Source of the DNA: Artemia franciscana
Taxonomy: Eukaryota > Arthropoda > Branchiopoda > Anostraca > Artemiidae
Assembly: GCF_032884065.1 (NCBI RefSeq)
Contig: NC_088872.1
Span: 1,674,001 to 1,738,000 of the forward strand
DNA length: 64,000 nt
Direction of reading: 5' to 3'
A model generated the notes under the pieces. It was not told the origin of the DNA. It made no database searches and saw only the letters and a program-made list of their open reading frames with translations. Positions 7,112-51,665 of the stretch are shown piece by piece (position 1 is the first letter of the stretch; every line of letters begins with the position of its first letter). The translations under genes were made by a program, and so were the position numbers.

Positions 7112-8890
7112 ATATAGAAGATATAGACACAAACATAGACATGGACATAGATATAGACGTGGATATGAAAAAACACATAGACAATAACATACACAGACAT
7201 AGACACTATACATAGACATAGAAACTACATAAATGATGCAGACATACACATAGACAGACTTAAAAATAGACATAAACATAGGCATAGACACAGACATACA
7301 CATAGACATAATGCATAGACCAGACGTAGATTAGACAAAGACAAAATTGAACTTCACCTTATTTGAAAGTTTAGTATCCACTTTTGCCAAAAAAAATTCT
7401 TTCAAGTTCCAAGAGAATTCTGGGGAAATCCAAATGAAATCATGGACAACCACATAGACTTACACATACACAGATACTACATAAATAATATAGACATAGA
7501 CACAGACATAGACATGGACATAGATATAGACATAGACATTAACAAACACATAGACATAGACACTACACTACACATAGACATAGAAACTACATAAATTATA
7601 TAGACATACACATAGACATACTAAAAATAGACAAAAACATAGATATACACAGAAATATACATAAACATATACCAGATATAGATATATGAAAAGACCAGAC
7701 ATAGACATAGAATAGACAAAGACAAAGACAAAATTGAACTTCTCCTTATTGGAAAGTTTAGCATCCACTTTTGCAAACATTTTTTCTTTCAGGTTCCAAG
7801 AGTATTATAGACATACACATACATAGACACTACATAAATAATATAGACATAGACATAGACATAGACATGGGCATGGATACAGACATAGACATGAACAAAC
7901 ATATAGACATAGACACTACACTACACATAGACATAGAAACTACATAAATGATATAGACATACACATAGACATACTTGAAAATAGACATAAACATAGATAT
8001 AGACACAGACATATACATAGACATAGACCAGATATACATAGATGAACCGACCAGACATAGACATAGAATAGACAAAGACAAAGACAAAATTGAACTTCAC
8101 CTTATTGGAAAGTTTAGCATCCACTTTTGCAAACATTTTTTCTTTCAGGTTCCAAGAGTATTCTGGCGAAATCCAAATGAAATCATGGGCAACCACATAG
8201 ACATACACATACATAGACACTAAATAAATAATATAGATATAGACATGAACAAACACAGACAATGACTTACACATAGACACTATACTACATATAGACATAC
8301 AAACTCCCTAAGCTATATAGATATACACATAGATAGACTTAAGAATAGACATAAATATAGATATAGACTCAGACATACATATAGACATAGACCAGATATA
8401 CATATATGCACAGGCCAGACATAGACATCGAATGAACAAAGACAAAGACAAAATTGAACTTCACCTTATTGGAAAGTTTAGTATCCACTTTTGCAAACAT
8501 TTTTTTTCTTTCAGGTTCCAAAAGTATTCTGGGGAAATCTAAATGAAATCATGGACAACCACATAGACATACAAATACATAGACACTACATAAATAATAT
8601 AGACATAGACATGAACAAACACAGACAATGACATACACATAGACACTAAACTACATATAGACATACAAACTCCCTAAGTGATATAGATAAACACATAGAT
8701 AGACTTAAGAATAGACATAAACATAGATATAGACTCAGACATACATATAGACATAGACCAGATATACATATATGCACAGGCCAGACATAGACATCGAATG
8801 AACAAAGACAAAGACAAAATTGAACTTCACCTTATTGAAAAGTTTAGTATCCACTATTGGAAACATTTTCTCTTTCGGGTTCCGAAAGAA
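7112..8890. repeat. (GACATA)-rich array in ~365-bp higher-order units
   Basis: Degenerate ACATAG hexamers are interrupted at regular intervals by a conserved ~130-bp core. The core contains AAAATTGAACTTCACCTTAT and CATTTTTTCTTTCAGGTTCC. The word GACAAAGACAAAATTG begins near 7333, 7721, 8077, 8441 and 8807, giving spacings of 356-388. Open frames rich in Met-Ser or Tyr-Val are by-products of the hexamer. The core is open on the minus strand in several copies but resembles no family I know. Confidence 0.9.
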
Positions 8891-8903
8891 CCCAAAAGTT
8901 TTA

Positions 8904-9596
8904 GTTAGTTCTTATATTAACGTCAGCATCTTACTTTAAGAGACATTCTACAGTCTGTGTCTATCCTTTCGAAGCTACTAAAAGAAGTGGACTTCTGCAA
9001 TCGTTAGTTCTTAAATTAACGTCAGCATCTTATTTTAAGAGACATTCAACAGTCTGTGTGTATCCTTTCGAAGCTACTATATGAAGTGGACTTCTGCAAT
9101 AGTTAGTTCTTATATTGACATCAGCATCTTACTTTAAGAGACATTCAACAGTCTGTGTGTATCCTTTCAAAGCTACTAAAAGAAGTGGACTTCTGCAATC
9201 GTTAGTTCTTAAATTAACGTCAGCATCTTATTTTAAGAGACATTCAACAGTCTGTGTGTATCCTTTCGAAGCTACTAAATGAAGTGGACTTCTGCAATAG
9301 TTAGTTCTTATATTAACATCAGCATCTTACTTTAAGAGACATTCAACAGTCTGTGTGTATCCTTTCGAAGCTACTAAATGAAGTGGACTTCTGCAATAGT
9401 TAGTTCTTATATTAACATCAGCATCTTACTTTAAGAGACATTCAACAGTCTGTGTGTATCCTTTCAAAGCTACTAAATGAAGTGGACTTCTGCAATAGTT
9501 AGTTCTTATATTAACGTCAGCATCTTACTTTAAGAGACATTCAACAGTCTGTGTGTATCCTTTCGAAGCTACTAAAGGAAGTGGACTTCTGCAATA
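8904..9596 (-). repeat. Array A: seven 99-bp units that decode as ankyrin repeats
   Basis: Unit starts fall at 8904, 9003, 9102, 9201, 9300, 9399 and 9498, exactly 99 apart. In minus-strand frame each unit reads SPLHLVASKGYTQTVECLLK, then a stop, then DADVNIRTNYCR: 33 positions that fit the ankyrin consensus (TPLHxAAxxGHxxIVxxLLxxGADVN). The stop (TAA) is at the same site in all seven. Units differ by scattered substitutions. The array lies directly downstream of the gene at 9624-10115. It looks like satellite DNA amplified from a nonsense-mutated ankyrin repeat. Confidence 0.9.
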
Positions 9597-9623
9597 GTTA
9601 GTTCTCAAGGTGGTTCTCAATTC

Positions 9624-10115
9624 TCAAGGTGGTAAGTCTAGTTCTATTCGTAGATTATCTAATACTTTATCCAAAATGTGTTCATATTTATAAGTTGGGT
9701 TTGTTAGTTGAAAATATTCAGTCACAAATTTTTGTATTCGTACGCGATGATTATTTTCTACAAATGCTTGGGAATTTCTTAACAAATACGCTAATATATA
9801 TATACTCTTTACCATCTTAAATAATTTATCGCTAAGAATTGCTTTTTCGAGCAAATTTATTATTTCAAGCGAATATTTGCTTGGCATTTCAGATAATTGC
9901 TGCATACGCTTTTCTTTTATAAGACCATCATCATTTCTTGTCATTTTTCTGAGCAAAGAATGACATTTGGATCTCCTATGAAGAACATCTGAAATCTTTC
10001 CGACCATTTTGCTTTTTTTTAATTTTTGCACAACTTTGGGTGCAGTCTCAGCTAAGACTATATATGTCAAAATACAGGTGACGATACTCCCAGTCATGGT
10101 TAATGGATCGCACAT
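9624..10115 (-). CDS. Unidentified ~163-residue helical protein, N-terminal part of an ankyrin-repeat gene
   Basis: Open from MCDPLTMTGSIV to LRIELDLPP. A hydrophobic stretch (about residues 6-26) is followed by a basic segment (VQKLKKSKMVGK) and a helix-rich remainder. The middle (LLRKMTRND to KVLDNL) has a hydrophobic pattern reminiscent of ENTH/VHS-type helical domains, but this is only pattern resemblance. A second copy lies at 11812-12396 and diverges mainly by substitutions. Ankyrin-derived units follow on the same strand, so the ancestral gene probably joined this domain to ankyrin repeats. The start is the first Met and is supported by conservation in the second copy. Its 3' end has become a short duplicated CTTGAGAA sequence. 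It could be an exon, a retrocopy or a decaying gene; expression is unknown. Confidence 0.5.
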   Translation of the reverse strand: MCDPLTMTGSIVTCILTYIVLAETAPKVVQKLKKSKMVGKISDVLHRRSKCHSLLRKMTRNDDGLIKEKRMQQLSEMPSKYSLEIINLLEKAILSDKLFKMVKSIYILAYLLRNSQAFVENNHRVRIQKFVTEYFQLTNPTYKYEHILDKVLDNLRIELDLPP

Positions 10116-10300
10116 ATTTTGATATGAAATAAGTTACTAATAAAACATGAAGTAACGAGTCACTTGAAGCACGAGGAAATCCAAGCTAATTTTAAAATTT
10201 TCAGGTATTTTTCATGTTTGAATTAAAAAAGTTTTACGATTGCTCAGACACTAGAAATATTTGTGCGGTTTGCAGTTAAATAAAATTATTTTATTTATAA
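10116..10300. repeat. Upstream flank shared by both gene copies
   Basis: Closely matches 12397-12581, including AAGTAACGAGTCACTTGAAG and TTGCTCAGACACTAGAAATA, so the duplication covers gene plus upstream flank. Both copies end where a minus-strand Helitron CTAG begins. Any promoter of the gene would lie here, but no clear TATA box or initiator can be assigned. Confidence 0.7.
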
Positions 10301-10893
10301 CTAGCTGTTGGGGTGGCGCTTCGCGTATTTTTCAGCGTCACTATGAAGTACATATTGACGAACCTTTGTTTTTTTAACTTAAATCTGGTAGGCATTGATG
10401 ACCTTATCCAAGTCAAAATCCCAAACCCAATCATCATCGCTATCATTTTCAGTTTTGATATGTTTTGACTCTCGCTTTCCAGGTGGATTTTCATCTAGCT
10501 GCGCGGTTTTGCGTTCTTTAGCCGCAAGCCTGTTTTCTTGCTGTTCTTGTGATTCCTCGGCACGCTTTCTTTTCTTACTTTCTCTATCAGCTGTAAGCCT
10601 GTTTTCTTGCTGTTCTTGTGATTCCTCGGTACGCTTTCTTTTCTTACTTTCTCTATCAGCAGCAAGTTTTTTGGCATAGACTCTTTGAGCAGCTTCCTCA
10701 GTTATTGCCATTGTAGGTTCTTCAGTCATTTTATAATTAAACATTTTTCCGTGAACAAATGTCTTAAATACCATTAATGACGTCACCGTCAAAGGAAAAA
10801 TGACGACAACTAATTTCATGACGTCAGTCAACACAGAAACATGATGTCACCTGATCCACAGACAGACAGACAACTTATTTTTATATATATAGG
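10301..10893 (-). mobile_element. Short non-autonomous Helitron carrying the charged ORF
   Basis: On the minus strand it runs from CC-TATATATATAAAAATAAGT (TC expected, first base changed) to GAAGCGCCACCCCAACAGCTAG followed by T. It lacks the A-rich array, minisatellite and Rep-helicase tail; the charged ORF nearly fills it. The 3' hairpin has lost much of its first arm. A second Helitron 3' end begins on the very next base (10894). Confidence 0.75.
10379..10834 (-). CDS. Helitron-borne charged protein with two KRKRAEE repeats
   Basis: Role unknown. The core reads TMAxxEEAAQRVYAKKLAADR, then two tandem ~21-residue units of type LAADRESKKRKRAEESQEQQ, then AAKERKTAQLDENPPG and an acidic-aromatic end (DDDWVWDFDLDKVINAYQI). 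The basic runs could serve nuclear localisation or DNA contact. Similar basic units occur near the N-terminus of some arthropod Helitron Rep-helicases (family knowledge), so this may be a detached N-terminal exon. Codons before the Met of MTEEPTMA overlap the TGACGTCA zone, so the start is uncertain. Other copies have one repeat unit instead of two. Confidence 0.6.
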   Translation of the reverse strand: MLTDVMKLVVVIFPLTVTSLMVFKTFVHGKMFNYKMTEEPTMAITEEAAQRVYAKKLAADRESKKRKRTEESQEQQENRLTADRESKKRKRAEESQEQQENRLAAKERKTAQLDENPPGKRESKHIKTENDSDDDWVWDFDLDKVINAYQI

Positions 10894-10939
10894 CTAGCTG
10901 TTGGTGTGACGCTTTGCCCCCCCCCCTTATTAAGGGGGT
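10894..10939 (-). mobile_element. Fragment of a Helitron 3' end
   Basis: CTAGCTGTTGGTGTGACGCT plus a C-rich run, abutting the 5' terminus of the neighbouring Helitron with no spacer. Nearly the same fragment sits at 12582-12620, where it directly follows the second gene copy, so it predates the tandem duplication and the Helitron at 10301-10893 inserted at its edge. Confidence 0.65.
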
Positions 10940-11700
10940 GTTAGTTCTTATATTAACGTCAGCATCTTACTTTAAGAGACATTCAACAGTCTGTGTGTAT
11001 CCTTTCAAAGCTACTAAATGAAGTGGACTTCTGCAATAGTTAGTTCTTATATTAACGTCAGCATCTTACTTTAAGAGACATTCAACAGTCTGTGTGTATC
11101 CTTTCGAAGCTACTAAATGAAGTGGACTTCTGCAATAGTTAGTTCTTATATTAACGTCAGCATCTTACTTTAAGAGACATTCAACAGTCTGTATGTATCC
11201 TTTCGAAGCTACTAAATGAAGTTGACTTCTGCAATAGTTAGTTCTTATATTAACGTCAGCATCTTACTTTAAGAGACATTCAACAGTCTGTGTGTATCCT
11301 TTCGAAGCTACTAAAGGAAGTGGACTTCTGCAATAGTTATTTCTTATTTTAACCTCAGAATCTTACTTTGAGAGACTACAAAATGAAGTTAACTTCTGCA
11401 ATAGTTAGTTCTTATATTAACGTCAGCATCTTACTTTAAGAGACATTCAACAGTCTATGTGTACCTTTCGAAGCTACTAAATGAAGTGGACTTCTGCAAT
11501 AGTTAGTTCTTATATTAACGTCAGCATCTTACTTTAAGAGACATTCAACAGTCTGTGTGTATCCTTTCGAAGCTACTAAAGGAAGTGGACTTCTGCAATA
11601 GTTAGTTCTTATATTAACGTCAGCATCTTACTTTAAGAGACATTCAACAGACTGTTGAATGCAGTCTGCAGCCAACAGTCTGAAATACATTTAGCAGTCT
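10940..11700 (-). repeat. Array B: second block of 99-bp ankyrin-derived units
   Basis: Units start at 10940, 11039, 11138 and 11237, then a shortened unit at 11336 (68 bases), then 11404, 11502 and 11601. Each whole unit again decodes in minus frame as an ankyrin repeat with the same TAA. Near 11645-11700 the pattern breaks up around a small palindrome (ATTCAACAGACTGTTGAAT). Confidence 0.88.
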
Positions 11701-11811
11701 GTGTATCCTTACGAAGCTGCTAAATGAAGTGGTTTTCTACAATAAATATTTCTTATATTAAAATCAGCACCAAATTTTAAGAGGCATTCAACAGTCTATG
11801 TGTATCATTTT
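11701..11811 (-). pseudogene. Diverged ankyrin repeat without the satellite stop
   Basis: Minus-strand reading LLKFGADFNIRN then IYCRKPLHLAAS. At the position where the array units have a stop (LLK*DADVN) this copy keeps Phe-Gly (LLKFGADFN), the expected ankyrin residues. It therefore looks ancestral to the array at that site. It has its own stop one helix later (AAS then TAA). Confidence 0.75.
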
Positions 11812-12396
11812 TTAAACTGCAAAGGAAGTGGACTTTGCAAAGGAAGTGGACATAGATTCCGTATTTGAGAAGTCAATGAGGTCATTTGAGAAGTCAGTCA
11901 GTGAGCATCCAGGTAAGTCTAGTTCTATTCGTAGATTTTCTATTACTTTAAAAAAAATGTGTTCATATTTATCAGTTGGGCTTGTTAGTTGAAAATATTC
12001 AGTCACAAATTTTTTTATTCGTACGCGATGATTATTTTCTACAAATGCTTGGGAATTTCTTAACAAATACGTTAATATGGTAATACTCTTTACCATCTTA
12101 AATAATTTATCGCTACGAATTGCTTTTTCGAGCAAATTTATTATTTCAAGCGATTATTCGCTTGGCATTTCAGGTAATTGCTGCATTCGCTTTTCTTTTA
12201 TAAGATGATCATTATCTCTTGTCATTTTTCTGAGCAAAGAATGACATTTGGATCTCCTATGAAGAACATCTGAAATCTTTCCGACCATTTTGCTTTTTTT
12301 TAATTTTTGCACAACTTTGGGTGCAGTCACAGCTAAAACTATATATGTCAAAATACCGGTGACGACATACCCAGTTATGGTTAATGGATCGCACAT
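11812..12396 (-). pseudogene. Second copy of the unidentified ankyrin-associated gene, interrupted
   Basis: Starts MCDPLTITGYVV and follows the copy at 9624-10115 closely, but a stop after QLPEMPSE splits it; the frame then reopens at LLEIINLLEKAI. Substitutions relative to the first copy are mostly single residues. Past LRIELDLP the frame differs from copy one: it runs on through repeated SMSTSFAKSTSF-like codons before a stop. The hydrophobic N-terminal segment and basic VQKLKKSK region are preserved. It is a segmental duplicate, now a pseudogene unless the stop lies at a splice site. Confidence 0.7.
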
Positions 12397-12620
12397 ATTT
12401 TGATATGAAATGAGTTACTCATAAAACTTGAAGTAACGAGTCACTTGAAGCACAAGGAAATCAAAGCTAATTTAAAATTTTCAGGTATTTTTTTGGTTTG
12501 AATAAAAAAAATTTTACGATTGCTCAGACACTAGAAATATTTGTGCGGTTTGCAGTTAAATAAAATTATTTTATTTATAACTAGCTGTTGGTGTGATTCT
12601 TTGCCCCCCCTTATTAATTT
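12397..12620. repeat. Duplicated upstream flank plus Helitron 3' fragment
   Basis: Mirrors 10116-10300 and then the CTAGCTGTTGGTGTGA fragment also seen at 10894. Marks the right-hand end of the tandem segmental duplication. Confidence 0.7.
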
Positions 12621-12870
12621 ATGAATTTTTTTTCCCTGAAATTAATTTCTGATCAATTTTTTTCAAAACAAGTTATTTTTCAACTGAAAGTAAGGAGCAA
12701 CATTAAAACTTAAAACGAACAGAAATTAGAATTATGTCCCAATTCTTCGACACAAATGAAAACAGTGTTTTAGTATCATTTAAATTACAGAAAAAAACTA
12801 GAATAATTCCTGAAATTCTAAATAAAATAATTTTATTTAACTGCAAACTTGACTTAGAACTTGAGTTCAA
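12621..12870. other. AT-rich dispersed-repeat-like stretch, no gene
   Basis: Contains AGTAAGGAGCAACATTAAAA; a related word in reverse (GTCGCTCCTTACTACAGTTC) lies near 20850. It looks like a piece of a dispersed repeat. No supportable open frame. Confidence 0.4.
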
Positions 12871-13165
12871 AGTAGCTTCGAAAGGATACACAGACCTTTA
12901 GTAGCTTCAAAAGGATACACACAGACTGTTGAATGTTTCTCAAAGTAAGATGCTGACATTAATATAAGAACTAACTATTGCAGGAAGGAAGTCCACTTCC
13001 TTTAGTAGCTTCTTTAGGATACACACAGACTGTTGAATGTCTCTTAAAGTAAGATGCTGACGTCAGACTGTTGAATGTCTCTTAAAGTAAGATGCTGACG
13101 TTAATATAAGAACTAACTATTGCAGAAGTCCACTTCATTTAGTAGCTTCAAAAGGATACACATAA
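12871..13165 (+). repeat. Inverted, scrambled ankyrin-unit fragments
   Basis: Four partial copies of the 99-bp unit in the orientation opposite to arrays A and B. They carry internal deletions (for example a CTGACGTCAGACTGTTGAAT junction). The same GTAAGATGCTGAC segment with TAA is present. The block ends in a Helitron 3' piece. Confidence 0.8.
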
Positions 13166-21241: not shown

Positions 21242-23731
21242 CTAGCTGTTGGGGTGGCGTTTCGCGCCACCCCAACACCTAGTTTGTGGTGCACTTCACG
21301 CCCCCCAAGCCCCCCCGCGCGCGTAAGTCGTTACGCGTCATATTAGTTACGCGCCATTGTAGTTGTGTCCCTGTGTCCCACCTGTGAATATAGATAGATT
21401 TATATATGTGTTTAAAACTATGTAAAAATTGCGAATATACAACTTCCTTGGCTTTCCTACTACTGGGAGCTTTCCGTTTCCAATTGCCAGCAATTGATCT
21501 GAAAATATTTGACCAGAGTCATCGTTTTGCAATCGGACACGCACATTTGTAGTTAATTTTAATATTTTTACGTGTGCCCATAAATTAGAATTTTTCAGGC
21601 AAGCATTCATTTCGTCTGCAGGAGTTAAACTACGTAAAAATTGCGAATATACAACATACTTGGCTTTCCCATTGTCTGTGCATATACAAAGCCGTATGTA
21701 CTAATGATGACGTCATATGCAAACGCTCTTTTTACAAACAAACAAACATGCATACACACAACTCGTTTTTATATAGATAGATAGATAGATACATACAATA
21801 CAAATTAACTGCGTAAAACTTGCGAATATACAACATTCTTCGCTGTCCAATTGTCGCTGCATATAAATAGATTGTCAGGTTTACCGACCCTCGAACTTGC
21901 AACGCACAATTGTCCATGGGACTGCCTGGTCTCAAATCTTGGTCAAAACAATATTGTTGATTTCGTGGACGTCTATATTTTTGGGTGCGATATTCGCTCT
22001 TTCACTTAGCCACTAATTATTTTTATAATTTTTTAGAATATTCGGAAATACTTTTTCAATCAATTAATTTTTGGACGTCACTAAATTACAGAAATAAGCA
22101 GGTAGTTGTATACGTCCTGAAATTGAGTCTACTGGGAGCTTTCCGTTTCCAATTTCCAGCAATAGATCTGAAAATGTTTGACCAGAGTCATCATTTTGCA
22201 ATCGGAAACGCATATTTGTAGTTAATTTTAATATTTTTACGTGTGCCCATAAATTAGAATTTTTCAGGCAAGCATTCATTTCGTCTGCAGGAGTTGATCT
22301 AGGTATTATAGGTAATGTTTGCCTGAAATCTCCCGCAAGCAATATTAATGTGCTGCCAAAGGGTTTCGACTTCCCTCTCAAATCTTTCAAGCGTTGATCC
22401 AGAGCCTCGAGCGATTTTTTGTGTGCCATTGTGCACTCATCCCAAATAATAAGTTTGCATTGCTGCAATACTTTACCCATCCCAGATGATTTGGAAATAT
22501 TGCACGTGGGAGTTTCTGTAGAATGCAAATTCAGAGGCAATTCCAAAGCGGAATGAGCAGTTCTTCCACCAGGCAGCAATGTTGCGGCTATTCCGGACGA
22601 CGCAATTACCAACGCTATATCATTTTTTGATCGAATTGATGCCAGAATCCGTTTTATTTTTACAATAATATCATGTAACCCCTTATCGACATTTTTATCA
22701 GGTATTTCAGCGGAAATCACATCATCAATTTCGTTCGAAGTAATTTTTTTTTTATGTAGCCAGATTAGTATATGTGCGTGTGGCACACCTCGTTTTGCCA
22801 TTCCACTGAGTACATCCAGCATCGCACTGACACAAACACTTCAAGTTTTACTATGTAGTTTATCAGTGATTTCAACTTTTGCCGGAAGACATGGGCCGTA
22901 ATGCCATGCCTATGAACCGCCAATTGTCCTTGAAGTAAAAGCTGCAGTATCTCGTCCCAAGATTGATTACATATAAATGTAATAAATAAATCTGGACGAC
23001 CATAGAGAAAAACATGCGCAATAGCATCTTGAGCATATTCATGCATATGACGAGGACTGCCATTATATGACGAAGGTAAAATTGTTAATCTTCCAACGTT
23101 TGTAGTATTACCGTCATTTATAACTTCATCTCGCAAATGAATGTATTGTTCAGAGCGAAGCTTGGTCTGATTCAGGCAGATATATAGCAAACGTTCTGAA
23201 TCAATTTTAGCATACATATCAACGATCAAATTGGTGAAACAATTTACGACATTTTAAAATATAATTTTCTTCATCCTGCCGAATCATTAGTCTATAGGAA
23301 TAATAATGCATTGCACTACATTTCTTATTCATTTCTTTGTTAGTGGCTGGATTCATTAATTTAATATTAAAGTGATAGCCGTCGGCTCCATCCCAAAAAA
23401 TGATAGGATATTGTAGGGTATCGTAGCATCGATGAGTTTCAGCAATTCTTAACAACTGAGCGTTTCGCTTATGAAGAATAATATCTCGAGGTAAAAACTG
23501 ATCACCGACCATAACGACTGCCACTTCGTCGATAGGCCAGGAGGCGTTTTGTCAGCGGAAATAACAATTTTATGCGTATCAGTAGGCATCAAATCGATGG
23601 CTGTTTTGAACAGACGCACTAAATTATTATTTTCGTGGAAAAGATGTTGCAATTTGGAAACGATTGTCCTTTCAACGTTGGGAGAAATTTTGCAACGTGC
23701 ATTCAATTCGTGTCCCACCTGTGAATATAGA
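21242..23731 (-). mobile_element. Deleted Rep-helicase Helitron, copy B (2.49 kb)
   Basis: Minus strand from TC-TATATTCACAGGTGGGACAC to the hairpin and CTAG|T. The 5' terminus is fused straight to Rep-helicase codons. The 3' part has a nested (TATC)n plus 5'-terminus insertion like the one at 6540-6740. This copy retains the Rep nuclease region. Confidence 0.8.
21805..23718 (-). pseudogene. Helitron Rep-helicase copy B: Rep domain fused to helicase lacking Walker A
   Basis: Pieces in order on the minus strand: LNARCKISPNVERTIV and LVRLFKTAIDLMPTDTHKIV; GDQFLPRDIILHKRNAQLL; the Helitron_like_N hallmark GRPDLFITFICNQSWDEI; the HUH nuclease motif PHAHILIWLHKKK. After DKGLHDIIVK the reading jumps to LASIRSKNDIA in the helicase, so Walker A and its surroundings are deleted. 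Walker B (KLIIWDECTMAHK) and GDFRQTLPIIPRS remain. A stop follows LVTSKN, and a second deletion removes most codons up to the C-terminal tail. Frameshifts lie near 23500, 23225 and 22800. Rep endonuclease would nick and join the Helitron ends; this copy is clearly inactive. It is the only copy here with the HUH motif. Confidence 0.9.
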
Positions 23732-45792: not shown

Positions 45793-45799
45793 TAGATAT

Positions 45800-46045
45800 A
45801 ATTCTAAAATTGTCAGGTAATTTTCTATTTTGAAATAAAAACTAAAATTATTGCTCAGACAACATAAATATTTTTGATATTTACATAATAGCTTTAGTGG
45901 TTCTAGACTGAAAACTAAATATGCTAATCAAATTGGGAATTGCAATCTTTTAGGTTGAAAAGGCAGATCCATTGGAATCATGAGAATGCGTGGAATAAGA
46001 AAAGCCTCACCCTCAAAGGCCCTGTCAAGATTGTTGCCTCTATTA
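45800..46045 (-). pseudogene. Small Rep-helicase fragment
   Basis: Minus strand 45935-46040 reads IEATILTGPFEGEAFLIPRI and DLPFQPKRLQF, the segment just before the conserved helicase tail. The rest is AT-rich sequence with TTGCTCAGACAACATAAATA, reminiscent of the flank at 10230-10270. Confidence 0.7.

Positions 46046-47575: not shown

Positions 47576-51665
<4,090 letters not shown>

Follow-up and report, generated by a model that had tools for sequence, protein, structure and literature searches.

We describe a tandem array of seven 99-bp units (array A) on the minus strand at positions 8902 to 9605 of the window, the 64,000-nucleotide stretch of the Artemia franciscana genome analyzed here (C10:1674001-1738000 in an assembly of 1.27 Gb and 6468 contigs), and we consider it probable that this is non-coding DNA derived from one decayed ankyrin repeat in which a stop codon arose and amplification followed. 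It offers a modest but clear example of how a repeat that once coded for protein turns into non-coding repeat DNA, and the main inference of an earlier note on this region, a repeat of coding origin with a fixed stop codon, was right. Tandem-repeat families seldom preserve a readable trace of their source; here one genome retains a remarkably full series of stages, from long open ankyrin genes through sense relatives present once per locus, a one-base nonsense difference, and sense units at array edges to the arrays themselves and their copies elsewhere. Since these stages all survive together, the order of events, loss of coding and then amplification, can be tested in sister species.

TRF delimits array A at 8902-9605 with a period of 99, 7.1 copies, 95% matches, and 0% indels, and translation in a single minus-strand frame gives ...ECLLK-TAA-DADVN... 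in all seven units, with the TAA at unit codon 21 and an extra in-frame TAG in the last unit; the earlier description of seven units spaced 99 bp apart at 9605-8904 on this strand, each with a TAA, is thereby confirmed. With the TAA masked as X, the Pfam Ank model (PF00023) matches array A at an E value of 6.7e-43 (142.7 bits against a cut-off of 21.1), for a query of six of the seven units (9003-9587) that ends before the TAG, and the same repetitive query also returned implausible matches to DUF7294 and GLF above their cut-offs and to Kringle below. The unit is therefore an ankyrin repeat. Of the hallmarks that had been read from it, PLHL is not uniform: SPLPL, SPLLL, and SPLHI occur alongside SPLHL. 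The earlier note would have given up the ankyrin origin had the Ank model been silent with stops masked or had the unit proved unrelated to any ankyrin gene; the model matched, and the genome survey below tied the unit to ankyrin sequences. The window contains 18 occurrences of a 23-base core of the unit, where 100 shuffles give an expectation of 0.00. The interval 8904-12135 had no match among phage records. Array A has another tandem repeat, with a period of 366 bp, only 13 bp away at 7903-8888 (2.7 copies, 91% matches).

Arrays A and B each come after one ORF of a single family on the same strand. Upstream of array A is an intact 163-aa ORF with a hydrophobic N terminus (9624..10115, minus strand), which stops 18 bp before the array and is itself preceded by a conserved cassette at 10116..10302 (minus strand, 174 bits, among the seven copies from which the cassette model was built). 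The second set comprises a cassette at 12397..12582 (also one of the seven training copies), a copy of the ORF at 11812..12396 that is broken by one TAA, a divergent edge unit at 11737..11834 that the 3' end of this ORF overlaps, and array B at 10940..11655, all on the minus strand. The edge unit has the sense codon TTT at the stop position and other in-frame stops. The earlier note had placed a second array at 10940 with the same stop, and array B does contain eight TAA units; its regularity did not hold, in that it includes 68-bp and 98-bp units and frame breaks. An inverted fragment on the plus strand (12816..13160), absent from that note, consists of a partial cassette (12816-12849, 18.9 bits) followed by three TAA units (about 12886-13160). 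Between the two sets lies a predicted short element (10304..10893, minus strand) containing an ORF at 10379-10834, which we take to be Helitron-like, and its putative 3' end (10894..10939, minus strand) directly abuts array B; both were placed from end motifs. As part of our preferred reading as a whole, the window is best explained as carrying a local duplicate of a module (cassette, ORF, and array), which gave arrays A and B.

The ORF family is called ENTH-like only, because its ENTH matches are weak or below cut-off: ORF 9624..10115 scores 21.8 bits (E = 2.1e-4) against a Pfam ENTH cut-off of 24, it matches Epsin 4 at an E value of 0.0044, four other members found nothing in Pfam at E ≤ 0.001, and a 13-member profile run against PDB matched the ENTH domain of yeast epsin Ent1 at an E value of 0.0018. 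The family has 29 matches across the genome, and its members, including 9624-10115 and L037-L056, are short ORFs with a hydrophobic N terminus. The two window copies are 87% identical in protein and 93.5% in DNA over the part compared, with 26 non-synonymous and 6 synonymous differences (dN/dS 1.15). When eight members are compared pairwise, the upstream 186 bp show higher similarity than the ORFs in every one of the 28 pairs. One member, L044, looks mosaic, with 99.4% identity to L040 in the first third and then 62.3% and 55.7%. Besides the copies before the two ENTH-like ORFs, the cassette occurs at 45799-45876 of the window, at 1803-1985 of L014, and at 4202-4316 of L009, and several loci have partial copies of it in inverted orientation; a copy with a weaker score (54.5 bits) precedes unrelated-looking ORFs of L009 (3916-4173 and 3438-3932, minus strand), one of which has a signal-peptide-like start.

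Sense ankyrin units are present in the same genome, long open frames among them, and a search with a single unit returned at least 182 matches. We scored a unit profile on the window and 28 fetched stretches, which gave 272 hits. The window and L009-L014 contributed 64, of which 56 are readable at the stop codon (the other eight have gaps there and were set aside), and 54 of these read TAA: 18 in the window, 12 in L009 (C2:65.83 Mb), 7, 3, and 3 in L010-L012 (C383), and 11 in L014 (C10:2.206 Mb). L013 (C383) has only gaps at the stop codon and thus no scored unit. The two exceptions are the TTT at 11737 in the window and a TAT at 3600 in L014. TAA was found in none of the 194 readable hits of the other 22 loci (208 hits, 14 set aside for gaps). 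The genome-wide count that the earlier note called for used a 33-base unit pattern that accepted A or T as the last base of the stop codon and up to 3 mismatches; it found 65 sites (0 in the reversed control), 47 with TAA and 18 with sense codons, a count that distant sense units escape because the pattern favors the dead unit. All 47 TAA sites fall in four places (11 on C2, 16 in the window, 8 at C10:2.206 Mb, and 12 on C383), and one of the 18 sense sites falls inside the C10:2.206 Mb array.

The units are thus head to tail and highly alike, as in satellite DNA, and they are neither abundant nor in long arrays. No array has more than 13 unit hits, a number reached in L009, and such lengths are subject to the quality of the assembly. 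There are about 50 units, with no more than about 13 to an array, and the 47 TAA sites of the scan, in their four places, amount to about 5 kb of 1.27 Gb. The term satellite DNA, which had been proposed for them, is an overstatement; they are best read as a tandem pseudogene array of low copy number, not as a satellite as commonly understood.

Apparently live ankyrin genes are represented by long open frames, among them eight of 410 to 778 aa, four of which were run against Pfam; all four have ankyrin units and a terminal PRANC domain. The genome has 88 PRANC matches, 80 of them without an internal stop and many within open frames several hundred residues long, and 14 control genomes had none. 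Exactly identical unit pairs inside the long-frame loci L028, L032, and L033 indicate that unit duplication is also ongoing in apparently live genes. Arthropods have ankyrin-PRANC gene families such as the CLANKs of Nasonia (PMC6161386), and as far as that account goes the genes here resemble them in their ankyrin units and their large, rapidly duplicating family; a difference is that no PRANC match lies beside a stop-bearing array. We rejected the idea that the array is what remains of the ankyrin section of an ANK-PRANC pseudogene, since 0 of 88 PRANC matches (E ≤ 0.001) adjoin the arrays, whether at C10:1.68 Mb, at C10:2.2 Mb, at C2:65.8 Mb, or on C383.

The closest relatives of the dead unit are found not in those PRANC-type long ORFs but at C10:3.07-3.23 Mb, where they follow related ENTH-like ORFs. 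These nearest sense units read KYDADVNIRTNYC(R/K), and one change, TAT to TAA, separates them from the nonsense unit. The sense unit sequence is LLKYDADVNIRTNYC(R/K) in L016, L017, and L019 and LFKYDADVNIRTNYCR in L015, and each of the four loci has one such KYDADV unit. These relatives are partly decayed themselves: the KYDADV unit of L016 has a stop at codon 13, and there are frame changes in the region.

A tree of units (176 rows, 96 columns, stop columns omitted) bears on the origin of the stop, with many of its forks unresolved; the near-copies L011, L012, L013, and L021 were left out of it and of the tests of selection described below, and the TTT edge unit is present twice, under two alignments. 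All 33 TAA rows fall in a group that, at its smallest, is supported at 91/94 (unstarred) and includes six sense rows, namely the KYDADV units of L015, L016, L017, and L019, the L014 3600 unit, and a divergent TCT unit of L016. Accounting for the TAA label takes 4 changes on the tree, against a mean of about 30.5 when shuffled, and none of 500 shuffles was as low; the starred branches force at least two changes. Not one of 200 bootstrap trees (0%) unites the TAA units in a single group, since a small number of sense units fall within them. The phylogeny that had been suggested as a check therefore agrees with a shared stop in its few label changes and does not return a single TAA group. One origin of the TAA, with sense units retained or restored, would fit these results without being proven by them; a second origin may have occurred, or reversions, as the TAT of L014 3600 within a TAA array may illustrate. 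Because TAA sites are confined to four places and the sense relatives are one change away and one per locus, the stop most likely arose before or during amplification. The earlier claim that expansion followed or spread the nonsense change thus holds in that the shared stop was multiplied; the order, stop and then expansion, is likely, on a tree whose 96 columns cannot prove a single origin.

Patterns of decay point the same way. Another decayed ankyrin array, with two related copies, has its stops scattered (8 at eight codons in L018, 11 at nine in L024, many of these codons in common), whereas in the stop-bearing arrays codon 21 recurs in array after array and further shared stops are few (codon 16 in L009 and codon 13 in the window, each of them three times), which argues that the nonsense unit itself was multiplied. 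Among 27 of the 33 TAA rows (the remaining six are edge units), pN/pS is 1.00, a value that alone does not separate dead from live units because nine loci with long open frames give 0.90 to 2.75; the proposed dN/dS check thus gave no discrimination. Special conservation of the stop was rejected, given that 8 of the 33 codons, TAA included, show no deviation in the 27 units. A test of codon-position constraint proved an unusable yardstick, because third-position changes are scarce in units of the long-frame loci as well.

The array DNA appears to have moved between loci. Unit identity is 92-96% within a place and 92-94% between places, compared with 74-84% in six comparison loci (four long-frame and two decayed, L018 and L024; nine were taken, and L028, L032, and L036 gave no full-length units). 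Units of array A and L014 are 93.7% alike, compared with 73.8% for the 186 bp that precede their ENTH-like ORFs and 51.0% for the ORFs; the greater likeness of units than of flanking DNA indicates that array DNA was copied or converted between loci. On C383 the C2 block recurs several times, with an identity of about 97-99%. L014 units 2841 and 2940 match the successive L009 units 2297 and 2396 at 95 and 96 of 99 positions, with a starred branch for each pair; block copying is suggested here and not secured, because the preceding L014 unit, at the start of the L009 array, matches at only 88 of 99 and another L009 unit, 2771, ties in both comparisons.

From these observations we infer the following order of events. 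A single ankyrin unit downstream of an ENTH-like ORF, already with KYDADVN rather than the usual KYGADVN of live genes, would have acquired the TAT-to-TAA change. Unequal exchange, apparently at work in the live ankyrin genes here too, would then have duplicated the 99-bp nonsense units into arrays of about 7 to 13, and local duplication of the module would have produced arrays A and B. Array DNA also occurs at C10:2.206 Mb, C2:65.83 Mb, and C383, the last with its several copies of the C2-type block, and copying between these loci, in either direction, may have involved Helitron-like elements, gene conversion, or segmental duplication. This reading suggests that repeat-unit turnover continues after the frame is dead.

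An unlikely alternative is that the array had already expanded when the stop arose in one unit and spread by gene conversion. The recombination between neighbors visible in L044 and the sense codons kept by the edge units at L014 3600 and window 11737 are in its favor; however, the four sense KYDADV loci have one such unit each, followed at most by different units, and the dead units are 92-96% alike across the full 99 bp, not merely around the stop. We give an equally small chance to a more active process, in which the stop-bearing unit acts as a selfish converter whose arrays are copied between ankyrin loci, on other chromosomes too, and replace sense units; if so, the family's own repeat-homogenizing machinery would be exporting a stop codon.

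Slightly less probable still is a dispersing, satellite-like family carried by Helitron-like elements. The putative Helitron-like 3' end abutting array B fits this, as do the arrays of C2 and C383, whose starts coincide with the tail of a dispersed repeat that hits the window 24 times, and two PIF1-like helicase ORFs in the window (22067-22822 and 49717-50838, minus strand). Against it, the junctions are one-sided, with no copy seen in which both element ends surround an array, and TAA sites are only 47 in the genome scan; moreover, adjacency is weak evidence because end-like motifs are frequent (56 hits in 64 kb, both strands). We also considered capture of an array by read-through of a Helitron beyond its 3' end, which may have occurred. 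The oyster Crassostrea gigas offers a parallel in Cg_HINE, whose central satellite-like repeats are carried by Helentrons (PMC7492417); in the features that source describes, the likeness lies in short tandem arrays near rolling-circle-type element ends, and the differences are that the unit here is a recognizable protein repeat in few copies and that no complete carrier element was seen. That the stop is read through or recoded in a live ankyrin protein is hardly credible: the frame of array A is otherwise open until the last unit, but readthrough would be needed seven times in succession, the stop-free PRANC matches behave as the standard code predicts, and array B and L014 have frame breaks, array A has its TAG, and pN/pS is 1.00.

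Gene-derived tandem arrays are familiar from D4Z4/DUX4, a macrosatellite of kilobase units, each with a whole ORF. The arrays here share that coding origin and tandem arrangement and differ in having a single 33-codon repeat as the unit, its stop fixed. A literature search covering few subscription papers gave, among the papers listed, no title on an ankyrin-derived array with a shared stop. Elsewhere in the genome, TTAGG repeats gave 32,177 matches on both strands against 0 for the reversed control. These repeats, and COX1 copies that are readable in invertebrate mitochondrial code 5, point to an arthropod. COX1 has 75 matches on many contigs, which suggests numerous nuclear copies of mitochondrial DNA.
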